From Psychroflexus longus (GTDB lineage: Bacteria > Bacteroidota > Bacteroidia > Flavobacteriales > Flavobacteriaceae): a DNA stretch of 64,000 nucleotides. The first letter of the stretch is position 1; every line of letters starts with the position of its first letter. This document shows, one piece after another, positions 18,359-64,000 of this stretch. Position numbers and translations under genes: made by a program. Under the pieces are notes generated by a model, which ran no database searches, had not been told where the DNA came from, and saw only the letters and a program-made list of their open reading frames with translations. The stretch covers positions 62,001 to 126,000 of the forward strand of contig NZ_JAIQZE010000006.1 of NCBI RefSeq assembly GCF_020164595.1. Direction: 5' to 3'.

Positions 18359-19018
18359 ATGATAAAGGCCAAACACATCAGCAAACATTACGGTGAGCTG
18401 AAAGTTCTTGATAGTATAAATTTAGAAATACAACAAAAGGAAATTATTTCCATTGTGGGACCTTCTGGTGTTGGAAAAACGACATTGCTTCAAATATTGG
18501 GTACATTGGAACTACCTGATCAAAACAAAAATTCTTTTCTCGAAATAAATGGTCAGCAAATAAATGGGCTCAAGAAAAAAGCCCTCGCCAGGTTTAGAAA
18601 TGAAAACATTGGTTTTATCTTTCAGTTTCATCAACTTTTACCAGAATTTTCGGCTATAGAAAATATTTGTATTCCTGCATTTATAAAAAATACTTCTAGA
18701 GGAGCTGCCGAGAAAAGGGCTATGGAGTTGCTTGGTTATTTGGACCTTAAACACAGAGCGGACCATAAACCTAATGAGTTGAGTGGTGGTGAACAACAAC
18801 GAGTAGCTGTTGCGAGAGCGCTCATCAACCAGCCAAAAGTTATTTTTGCTGATGAACCTTCAGGAAATCTTGACTCAGCTTCTGCCAACAAACTGCACCA
18901 ATTATTTCTAAAATTAAGAGATGAATTTGATCAAACTTTTGTCATCGTTACTCATAATGAAGAATTAGCGGATATGGCAGACCGAAAACTAGAAATGAAA
19001 GATGGCCAATTTGTCTAA
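18359..19018 (+). CDS. ABC transporter ATP-binding protein (LolD/MacB-like)
   Basis: A 219-residue stand-alone ATPase. Motifs: Walker [12 protein letters not shown]-loop [11 protein letters not shown], signature [15 protein letters not shown], Walker [13 protein letters not shown], and the switch His in VIVTHNEEL. The [15 protein letters not shown] region and the SGNLDSASA sequence place it with the LolD/FtsE/MacB group, which works with FtsX-like permeases in lipoprotein release or envelope tasks. No permease gene is adjacent; in this phylum the LolCE partner is often elsewhere. The 3' end overlaps the next gene by 17 bp. Confidence 0.9.
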
Positions 19019-19778
19019 AATTGAAAATTTAAAACCTTTCCTGGACGAAAAAGCTCAGTTGTACAACCAATTTAAATTCATTGCAACCGATCCAATTTCA
19101 ATCCCTCACAAATTCGAGAAAAAAGAAGATATTGAAATTGTAGGATTTTTGATTGCCACCATAGCATGGGGAAATAGAAAAAGCATTCTTAATAACGGAG
19201 AAAAACTCTGTAAAATCCTAAAGTTTGAACCCTATGATTTCATTTTGAATCACACTGATGCTGACCTTGATAAATGCATTGGATTTGTTCATAGAACTTT
19301 CAATGCTCATGACTTAAAATATTTCATAAAAGCTTTAAAATATATTTACACCAATCATCAGGGTCTAGAATCTGTGTTTTATAAACATCAGACCAAAGAA
19401 TCCCTTCAACCAGCGATACATGAGTTCAAATCTCTTTTTTTTCAGCTTGAACATGAGCAAAGAACAGAAAAACACGTTAGCGATCCTAAAAAAAATTCAG
19501 CTGGCAAACGTATAAATATGTTTCTCCGCTGGATGATAAGAAAAGATACAAATGGAGTGGATTTCGGTATTTGGAACAGTATTTCCCCATCAATCTTGTC
19601 CTGTCCACTCGATGTACATTCTGGAAGAATCGCTCGAGAACTAGGTCTTTTAAATAGAAAAAAAAACGACGCTAAAGCAGTGAAAGAATTGGATATGAAT
19701 TTACGCCAACTAGATCCAATGGACCCAGTGAAATACGATTTTGCACTTTTCGGACTCGGTGCTTTTGAAAACTTTTAA
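19002..19778 (+). CDS. TIGR02757 family protein (DUF2400)
   Basis: A 258-residue soluble protein matching the TIGR02757/DUF2400 family: [13 protein letters not shown] near the N-terminus, [30 protein letters not shown] and [15 protein letters not shown] near residue 180, then [17 protein letters not shown] and [16 protein letters not shown] at the C-terminus. The last two blocks resemble the helix-hairpin-helix glycosylase layout, so a relation to DNA-binding enzymes has been proposed for the family, but no function is established. It overlaps the LolD-like gene by 17 bp and is followed by a terminator hairpin. Confidence 0.88.
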
Positions 19779-62300: not shown

Positions 62301-64000
62301 ATGGAACATTTTGTTGTCTCTGCCAGAAAATACAGACCCGAAACTTTTGAAGACGTTGTTGGCCAAAAAGCCATCACCAATACTTTGCTCAATGCCATAG
62401 ACAACGATCATTTGGCTCAGGCTCTTTTGTTTACAGGACCTCGTGGGGTTGGCAAAACCTCTTGTGCTCGAATTCTAGCTAAGAAAATCAACCAGCAAGC
62501 CACCGATGACGAGACTACAGATTTTGCTTTCAATATTTTTGAGCTGGATGCAGCTTCCAACAATTCTGTTGATGACATCAGAAGTCTTACCGACCAGGTA
62601 AGGATTCCTCCTCAAACAGGAAAATATAAGGTTTATATTATCGATGAGGTCCATATGCTTTCCCAGGCGGCCTTCAATGCATTTTTGAAGACTCTTGAAG
62701 AACCCCCCAAACATGCTATTTTTATATTAGCAACTACCGAAAAGCACAAAATCATTCCTACGATTTTATCGCGATGTCAAATATTTGATTTTAAACGAAT
62801 CACCGTTGGCGACATTAAAGAACATCTGGCTAAAATAGCTGAAAAAGAGGGAGTCAATACAGATGAAGATGCATTGCACATCATAGCGCAGAAGGCTGAT
62901 GGAGCCATGCGTGATGCTTTATCAACTTACGACAGAGTAGTTAGCTTTAGTGGGAACAATTTGACCAGAGAGGCTGTTACTGAAAACCTAAACGTCTTAG
63001 ATTACGATACCTTTTTCAGAACGACAGATTTGTTGCTTGAAAATAACATCCCAGAAGCTTTAATTTATTTTAATGAAATCCTAGCTAAAGGATTTGATGG
63101 TCAGCATTTTATCGCCGGTTTAGCTTCTCACTTTAGAGACTTGATGGTTTCCAAAAATCAGCAGACGATTACTTTGCTTGAAGTTGGTGAGCGTACCAAA
63201 ACCAAATATTTTGAGCAATCGAAAGCGACTTCATATACATTTTTACAGGAAGGAATTGATTTGGCCAATTCCTGTGACTTCAACTACAAATTGAGTCAGA
63301 ATCAACGTTTACACGTCGAGCTTTGTTTGATGAAACTGGCTTCACTTACTGATCCAAATTCACCAGAAAAAAAAAAGACTAAACACCACATCTTAAGTCC
63401 GAAAGAAGTCAAAGAAGCTTCTACCGGCTTTTCCAACCCCTCTGTTAAAGAGGAAACTTCAGAAAAATATACTGAAAAAGCATCAGATGAACGCAAAGTT
63501 GAACCTGAAGAAAAAACTTTAGATTCTTCTCCAACTGAGGACGCAGACATGAAATCAACTGAAGCTGAAAGCTCACCAACTGAAACCATTAAACCAACGG
63601 AGGCAAAATCAGTAGAAAAAAAAATAGCTGAAGAACCTCGGGAAAAAATAAAACCTTCGCTTACCAACCTACCAAAAAAGGTAAATGGTCTGTCCATAAA
63701 AAGCATTCAGGAAAAAAAACGACTTAAGGAACAGCAGACTAAAGATAAGCCCGAAGAGGAACAATTGACGGCAGAATTTACTGAAGAGGATATGCTTAAC
63801 GCTTGGAACGATTATATGCAGGTGTTGAGTGGTAATGGAAGTAAAATTGTGGCGTCTGTGATGGGAACCTCAAAGCCAAAACTCGATGGACATGTTATAA
63901 AATTGGAGCTTCCAAATGAATCTATGAAATTGAATTTGATTCAAGATCAGGGTGAACTGATGAGGTTTTTGAAAGACAAATTGCAAAATACATCTATAAG
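62301..64000 (+). CDS. dnaX: DNA polymerase III subunit gamma/tau (3' truncated by the window)
   Basis: The clamp-loader ATPase; 566 residues are visible and the gene continues past base 64000. Walker A GPRGVGKTSCARIL, Walker B YIIDEVHMLSQAAFNAFLKT, sensor 1 LATTEKHKIIPTILSRCQIF and the DGAMRDALSTYDRV sensor-2 region are intact. The Zn-finger cysteines found between Walker A and B in most DnaX proteins are absent: only one Cys follows the P-loop. The collar domain ends at about residue 350 (NQRLHVELCLMKLASL), then a Lys/Glu-rich linker begins directly with EKKKTK encoded by a run of ten A. The C-terminal tau domain starts near residue 495 (TAEFTEEDMLNAWNDYMQVL). Confidence 0.97.
   Translation, partial: MEHFVVSARKYRPETFEDVVGQKAITNTLLNAIDNDHLAQALLFTGPRGVGKTSCARILAKKINQQATDDETTDFAFNIFELDAASNNSVDDIRSLTDQVRIPPQTGKYKVYIIDEVHMLSQAAFNAFLKTLEEPPKHAIFILATTEKHKIIPTILSRCQIFDFKRITVGDIKEHLAKIAEKEGVNTDEDALHIIAQKADGAMRDALSTYDRVVSFSGNNLTREAVTENLNVLDYDTFFRTTDLLLENNIPEALIYFNEILAKGFDGQHFIAGLASHFRDLMVSKNQQTITLLEVGERTKTKYFEQSKATSYTFLQEGIDLANSCDFNYKLSQNQRLHVELCLMKLASLTDPNSPEKKKTKHHILSPKEVKEASTGFSNPSVKEETSEKYTEKASDERKVEPEEKTLDSSPTEDADMKSTEAESSPTETIKPTEAKSVEKKIAEEPREKIKPSLTNLPKKVNGLSIKSIQEKKRLKEQQTKDKPEEEQLTAEFTEEDMLNAWNDYMQVLSGNGSKIVASVMGTSKPKLDGHVIKLELPNESMKLNLIQDQGELMRFLKDKLQNTSI
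63367..63382 (+). promoter_or_regulatory. Candidate programmed slippage site in dnaX
   Basis: Ten A (63367-63376) followed by G contain the heptamer A-AAA-AAG in the dnaX frame (63371-63377). A -1 shift gives GAC then TAA (63380-63382), ending at 360 residues. Gain of one A in the transcript gives the same stop; loss of one gives a stop after a few more codons. Confidence 0.65.

Follow-up and report, generated by a model that had tools for sequence, protein, structure and literature searches.

A conserved ten-adenine run at the gamma/tau boundary of dnaX in Psychroflexus longus and its relatives: a candidate site of programmed transcriptional slippage

The last gene in a 64,000-nucleotide stretch of Psychroflexus longus DNA (the window in what follows) is dnaX, and it carries a run of ten adenines directly past the collar domain. 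The question raised by this locus is whether one gene gives both a long tau and a short gamma product at this run, and whether the RNA polymerase or the ribosome would be responsible. Worked-out programmed transcriptional slippage in cellular genes amounts to few cases, with Thermus dnaX as the model; in Thermus thermophilus it was reportedly described by Larsen et al. in 2000.

From the sequence and its relatives, we consider it very probable that the A10 run is a programmed RNA polymerase slippage site through which dnaX would yield both tau and gamma. The polymerase would add or drop adenines at the run, giving dnaX mRNAs in all three frames. Transcripts with ten adenines, or with ten plus a multiple of three, would be translated into tau, and the remaining transcripts would stop 3 or 17 nt past the run and give a gamma of about 360 residues that ends just after the collar domain. 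The corresponding rule in related genes would be two frames closed and one open; since a slipping polymerase takes no account of codons, any of the genomic frames may be the one left open for tau.

The dnaX locus of the window

The dnaX product of the whole contig is a protein of 609 aa, and the gene of the window is not split, tau lying in this one frame. The product matches TIGR02397 (dnaX_nterm) with 386.7 bits against a cut-off of 250, and the truncated DnaX protein of the window, used as query, matches PRK14971 with 682.7 bits against a cut-off of 685. The features of the locus are as follows.

62301..63998, + strand: dnaX (DNA polymerase III gamma/tau), the last gene of the window, continuing beyond its end
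62964..63374, + strand: collar domain PF12169 (Pfam match, residues 222-358), the last folded domain of the gamma product
63367..63376, + strand: A10 run, slippage site predicted from the sequence, conserved in relatives
63371..63377, + strand: zero-frame heptamer A_AAA_AAG, possible ribosomal -1 site, last base varying among relatives
63380..63382, + strand: TAA closing the -1 frame (equivalent to transcripts with one extra A), predicted gamma of 360 aa
63394..63396, + strand: TAA closing the +1 frame (equivalent to transcripts one A shorter or two longer)
63395..63430, + strand: predicted stem 3' of the run, probably incidental, common only to the nearest sister species
63616..63624, + strand: a further A run, A9, within the tau linker, a length not kept in the genus

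Within the ORF that starts at 62301, the frame at 63363-63383 reads CCA GAA AAA AAA AAG ACT AAA, codons 356-359 being GAA AAA AAA AAG with ACT AAA behind them. With residue 358 as the last of the collar domain match, the run sits at the gamma/tau boundary. Read in the -1 frame, the run is followed by GAC (63377-79) and then TAA (63380-82), 3 nt from its end; with one A fewer the reading is K-K-R-L-N-T-T-S and then TAA (63394-96), the +1 frame thus closing 17 nt from the run. A preliminary description of this DNA had named the A10 run, the zero-frame A_AAA_AAG, the -1 stop, the 360-residue product and the place after the collar, all of which agree with the sequence and the Pfam match, and rereading the sequence returned the same minus-one-A product, KKRLNTTS before its TAA.

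Long A runs are scarce in this DNA. On both strands of the window, A9 occurs in 4 overlapping matches compared with 21.2 expected from shuffles, and the 2.95-Mb genome holds 13 distinct runs of ten or more (16 overlapping matches). Avoidance of A runs appears at length nine in a large share of genomes (PMC1088944).

Several other runs were encountered. The second dnaX run (63616-63624) reads GTA GAA AAA AAA ATA GCT, and the other frames stop within 0 and 4 nt of it. Among the 26 genus loci it reaches A9 only in the species of the window, with A8 in L010 and L017. It was considered as a conserved slippage site and treated as incidental, closing both frames yet being unique in the genus as an A9; a second, longer truncated DnaX form could nevertheless be made from it in Psychroflexus longus. 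Another A9 lies at 19658-19666 within a 258-aa ORF (19002-19778, + strand; AAT AGA AAA AAA AAC GAC). Elsewhere in the same genome, one A10 falls close to the 3' end of the frame for a TrkH-type cation transporter (L148, 1501-1510) and another within a family 2 glycosyltransferase frame (L152, 1501-1510), both of which are possible further slippage sites.

Conservation of the run across the phylum

A total of 294 dnaX loci were collected across the phylum, the window's own included. They comprise a genus sample of 26 loci (26 of 27 genomes searched matched), a named set of 80 loci among the matches listed, a family sample of 28 plus 31 loci (243 of 249 genomes matched), a class sample of 80 loci (147 of 149) and an other-class sample of 40 loci (146 of 148), and nine loci picked mostly for a short-looking listed frame (L273-L281) are counted with them. 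The family sample was drawn from the best-scoring matches and favours unsplit genes; a set with one locus per family offers the fairest count. Class and phylum are search codes here, the names Bacteroidia and Bacteroidota being deduced from the named relatives.

Around residue 350, 254 of the 294 loci have a longest A run of nine or more, as do 245 of 285 when the nine picked loci are left aside. The run is A10 in 209 loci, A9 in 27, A11 in 15, A12 in 2 and A13 in 1; A8 does not occur, and 40 loci have A7 or less. When each family is represented by a single locus, 51 of 62 families of the class and 9 of 23 from other classes have a run of at least nine. All 26 genus loci, the window's among them, and all 59 sampled family loci have it. 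In the named set, by NCBI ranks and among the matches listed, the run is present in 37/37 Flavobacteriales, 7/7 Sphingobacteriales, 6/6 Cytophagales and 10/19 Bacteroidales, and it is absent from the set's single Bacteroides locus and from its single Prevotellaceae locus. Even among loci above 55% GC, the run persists in 14 of 23.

The run occupies the three codon phases in 21, 187 and 46 loci, and its length mode is 10 in every phase; in 165 of the 254 it is an A10 in phase 1, which holds just two complete AAA codons. The final heptamer is AAAAAAG in 90 of these loci, AAAAAAA in 74, AAAAAAT in 53 and AAAAAAC in 37. With this variation in the base that follows, conservation attaches to the run of nucleotides itself rather than to the lysines or to the heptamer of E. 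coli. An alignment of dnaX had been proposed as a check, and in it A10 is kept in relatives while the last codon is AAG, AAT, AAC or AAA; lysine codons interrupted by AAG, named beforehand as the refuting pattern, were sought at the site and occur in 0 of 85 genus and family loci. As judged from these alignments, the conserved features are the A run and two nearby out-of-frame stops, and not the A_AAA_AAG heptamer.

This observation bears on ribosomal -1 frameshifting at A_AAA_AAG, which would make gamma from a uniform mRNA in the manner of E. coli dnaX and to which we assign a low probability. The window provides what such a shift would use, a zero-frame heptamer with a -1 stop one codon on; against it, E. 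coli has only an A6, whereas the lengths here are 9 to 13 and never 8 whatever the phase, and only 90 of the 254 loci have a heptamer that ends in G.

A DNA-level hypermutable tract (phase variation), or a plain conserved lysine-rich linker, would account for the run with no programmed product at all. The run does always encode lysines, and L017 and L042 have A9 where close relatives have A10, so that indels in the run may occur. AAA is not needed for lysine, however, as AAG makes up 2404 of 8317 lysine codons outside the site in the tau-in-frame genes. When the codons of the zone are shuffled, A9 or more arises in 11.2 of 186 genes compared with 186 observed, these genes having been chosen for the run. 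Moreover, neither the stops in both other frames nor the keeping of A10 through the frame switches described below is explained by a tract or a linker, and we regard this explanation as very improbable. Sequence comparison thus indicates that the A run at this place in dnaX is not due to chance.

A few loci outside the general pattern are of interest in themselves. L198 has A7 where L197, from another family and 64% identical over the first 350 residues, has A10, and in each of them the two other frames stop at 9 and 5 nt past the run; L198 may represent a loss of the run in progress. In family f75, outside the class, the four sampled loci (L244, L267, L268, L271) carry A9 instead of A10, in phase 2, and run length may accordingly be tuned by clade. 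L104, named as one of the Bacteroidales, has no A run, and its dnaX frame ends about 20 codons past residue 350, which could reflect a broken gene, an assembly error or another mechanism.

Closed frames and changing layouts

Of the 186 genes whose genomic frame encodes tau, 156 close the two remaining frames within 18 nt of the run. Other A runs in the same genes served as a control, and both frames are closed within that distance at 60 of 423 A6, 14 of 153 A7 and 9 of 66 A8-A9 runs. The class set, with 45 such genes, was also compared with codon shuffles: 39 have a -1 stop no more than 9 nt from the run (shuffle mean 13.4, maximum 21), 38 have a +1 stop no more than 18 nt from it (mean 13.2, maximum 20), and 37 have the two together inside 18 nt (mean 5.2, sd 2.1, maximum 12). 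Of 11 tau-in-frame genes from other classes, 10 have a -1 stop inside 9 nt (shuffle mean 3.0). The +1 signal is weaker there, with a stop within 18 nt in 7 (mean 2.3) and within 9 nt in 0 of 11 (mean 1.2).

That the -1 stop is the nearest and most consistent of the two, as the 39 of 45 in the class set illustrate, is in line with a ribosomal -1 shift. The closing of the +1 frame as well is not, since E. coli dnaX, which depends on such a shift, has its -1 stop at +3 nt and its +1 stop only at +35. An earlier study describes truncating slippage as hard to assess by comparison (PMC1088944); two-frame closure is a way to assess such cases.

Four loci carrying a run of at least nine did not extend far enough for a layout to be assigned, and the layout counts cover 250 loci instead of 254. 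Tau lies in the genomic frame in 186 of the 250, in the -1 frame in 58 and in the +1 frame in 6, so that 64 of 250 genes are split, the genomic frame giving gamma and tau lying outside it; without the nine picked loci the counts are 185, 51 and 5. The position of tau in the -1 frame in 58 of the 64 split genes again suits a -1 shift. In 57 of these 58 genes the genomic frame ends within 18 nt. The third frame closes within 30 nt in 55 of them (shuffle mean 35.7, maximum 45), and in 39 it already does so within 9 nt (mean 15.5, maximum 26); in the class subset of 17 split genes it is closed within 30 nt in 16 (mean 10.6, maximum 15), and the excess within 9 nt is weaker (8; mean 4.6, maximum 11). 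A simple -1 shift never visits the third frame, so a stop there is useless to it and would be useful to slippage into all frames.

Layouts have changed repeatedly. At least 40 changes were counted on a FastTree tree of about 350 N-terminal residues of this one protein (20 label shuffles gave 52-63), and at least 37 when only single-ORF and split forms are distinguished, misplaced rows in such a tree inflating the count. Among the 16 nearest pairs, two routes were seen. Along one the run itself changes (L017 with A9 vs L010 with A10; L042 with A9 vs L043 with A10), and the A9 in L017 and L042 could be sequencing errors. Along the other, indels occur beside an unchanged A10 (L039 vs L029, L274 vs L296, L273 vs L297).

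Closure of both frames would equally be favoured if it were the ribosome that slid along the A run, over several positions and in both directions. E. coli ribosomes slide on A runs until they meet an out-of-frame stop, and three AAA lysines are already enough to give some truncated product (PMC4363877). The same source reports robust truncation at A11, compared with a mode of 10 here; the phase-1 A10 that prevails at 165 of the 254 loci offers only two full AAA codons, and a dependence on codon phase would be expected, yet the length mode is independent of phase. We therefore hold ribosome sliding to be unlikely, somewhat more so than the -1 shift. Polymerase slippage is favoured by the minimum length of nine, by the indifference to phase and to the last codon, by the closing of both frames and by the occurrence of tau in any frame. 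Slippage at the run, its transcriptional nature, a ratio of the two products and any role for gamma are what we would infer from these observations.

Ribosomal signals and known systems

Downstream of the run, a stem is predicted at 63395-63430 (MFE -10.7, z -2.6 over 60 nt), starting about 19 nt after the run, and it is a point in favour of a ribosomal -1 shift in the window. Its z-score depends on the length of sequence folded, being +0.1 over 40 nt, -2.5 over 50 and -3.3 over 80. Aligned with its nearest sister, the window has a consensus energy of -11.6; the value is -1.9 for 4 genus rows and 0.0 for sets of 9 and 25, and three identical rows, used as a control, keep the stem. Over 89 relatives the mean fold z is -0.35 downstream of the run and -0.48 upstream. 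The known stem of E. coli, folded as a control, has a z of -0.17 despite an MFE of -19.7, indicating that the fold z-score is insensitive. Conserved RNA structure was rejected as a shared feature on the mean z-scores and on the missing consensus in 9 or 25 genus rows, subject to the caveat that by z the E. coli control is likewise non-significant. The preliminary description saw no strong downstream stem-loop; this needs amending for the window itself, where a stem is predicted at about 63395-63430; the nearest sister species has it too, and the alignments of 4, 9 and 25 genus rows do not keep it.

A shift of the E. coli type would call for a Shine-Dalgarno-like stimulator some 10 nt upstream and a stem-loop a few nt downstream. 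No Shine-Dalgarno-like motif is found in the 30 nt upstream of the run in the window, and SD-like 4-mers occur upstream in 8 of 89 relatives vs 2 of 89 at a control place, which speaks against a -1 shift of the E. coli kind, as does the missing consensus stem, with the stated insensitivity of fold z-scores. E. coli-like potential stimulators are said to exist in one Chlorobium (PMC5009743), a point on the side of such a shift.

The search for tRNAs in the genome gave 34 matches; 30 loci were scanned and include two tRNA-Lys, both UUU. The other 4 matches measure 82-90 nt, two of them being seen in neighbouring loci (Tyr, Leu) and two being unassigned. A second tRNA-Lys was sought with the two-tRNA argument against ribosomal shifting in mind, as made for Thermus, and the argument was dropped when only UUU was found. 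The single tRNA-Lys type, as in E. coli, leaves room for ribosomal shifting. So does a bias in the base behind the run: among phase-1 A10 genes, G follows in 25 of 29 split genes vs 55 of 132 with tau in frame (Fisher p 1e-5), and tree-independent pairs show no trend for it, in 6 pairs only.

Counting against polymerase slippage, then, are the single tRNA-Lys(UUU), ribosome sliding on A runs, the G bias in split phase-1 genes, the weaker third-frame excess in the split genes of the class, the lack of +1 stops within 9 nt in the 11 tau-in-frame genes of other classes, the 40 of 294 loci without a run and the stem in the window. The earlier view that the site has features of both systems holds for the zero-frame heptamer, which is present; beyond this it is weaker, AAAAAAG being just one variant among four in the relatives, and neither a Shine-Dalgarno of the E. 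coli type nor a stem close by was found. Its reading of a programmed gamma, and its lean towards transcriptional slippage, gain strong comparative support from run conservation, two-frame closure and the varying last codon.

Compared with E. coli dnaX, the gene of the window shares the zero-frame A_AAA_AAG, the -1 stop one codon later and the one tRNA-Lys type; it differs in its longer run, in the closing of the +1 frame too and in the variation of the heptamer among relatives, and neither an SD stimulator nor a close conserved stem was found here. With Thermus dnaX, as portrayed in PMC1088944 and PMC5009743, it has in common a coding-strand A run of at least nine, a genomic frame that encodes tau, stops soon after the run in the two remaining frames and a truncated gamma. 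The Thermus type is further marked by mRNA whose A runs vary in length and by a gamma to tau ratio of about 1:1. The differences are that the Thermus run is an A9, against A10 here, and lies seven-eighths along the gene, against codon 356 of 609 directly past the collar domain, and that the two-tRNA argument was made for Thermus (PMC5009743), against one tRNA-Lys type in the genome of the window. Slippage in the window dnaX, unlike that in Thermus, is predicted from the sequence. Taken together, the comparison marks the window dnaX as a gene of Thermus layout with an unusually clear evolutionary picture.

The GeneTack survey lists split dnaX in 17 genes of 12 genera, nine of them with A10, and suggests transcriptional slippage for them (PMC3711429). 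Those genes resemble the present ones in the A10 and in having gamma in the genomic frame, as in the relatives Flavobacterium and Chryseobacterium; the window gene differs from them as a single ORF, a form that a survey looking for frame transitions would presumably miss by its design. Among the open-access PMC papers listed in searches, no account was found of a phylum-wide run, of the single-ORF form in the phylum, of two-frame closure or of switching. Split A10 dnaX genes themselves had already been described in the GeneTack survey (PMC3711429).

For the wider group we lean, by a modest preference, towards the following reading of the sequences. In most families of the class and in some sister classes, the polymerase would scramble the dnaX frame at a run tuned to ten adenines, and selection would see only that two frames are closed and one is open. 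The frame of tau would then be nearly neutral, single-ORF and split forms having switched at least 37 times, and dnaX genes with an apparent break at the run would be functional members of one and the same system. A large set of dnaX genes in three interchangeable frame layouts represents a natural experiment on the efficiency of slippage and on why the run numbers ten, and loci without the run, such as those of one Bacteroides and one Prevotellaceae, bear on whether cells need gamma. Where a dnaX frame breaks at the run, as in Flavobacterium and Chryseobacterium, a test is called for before the gene is put down as a pseudogene or the break as a sequencing error.
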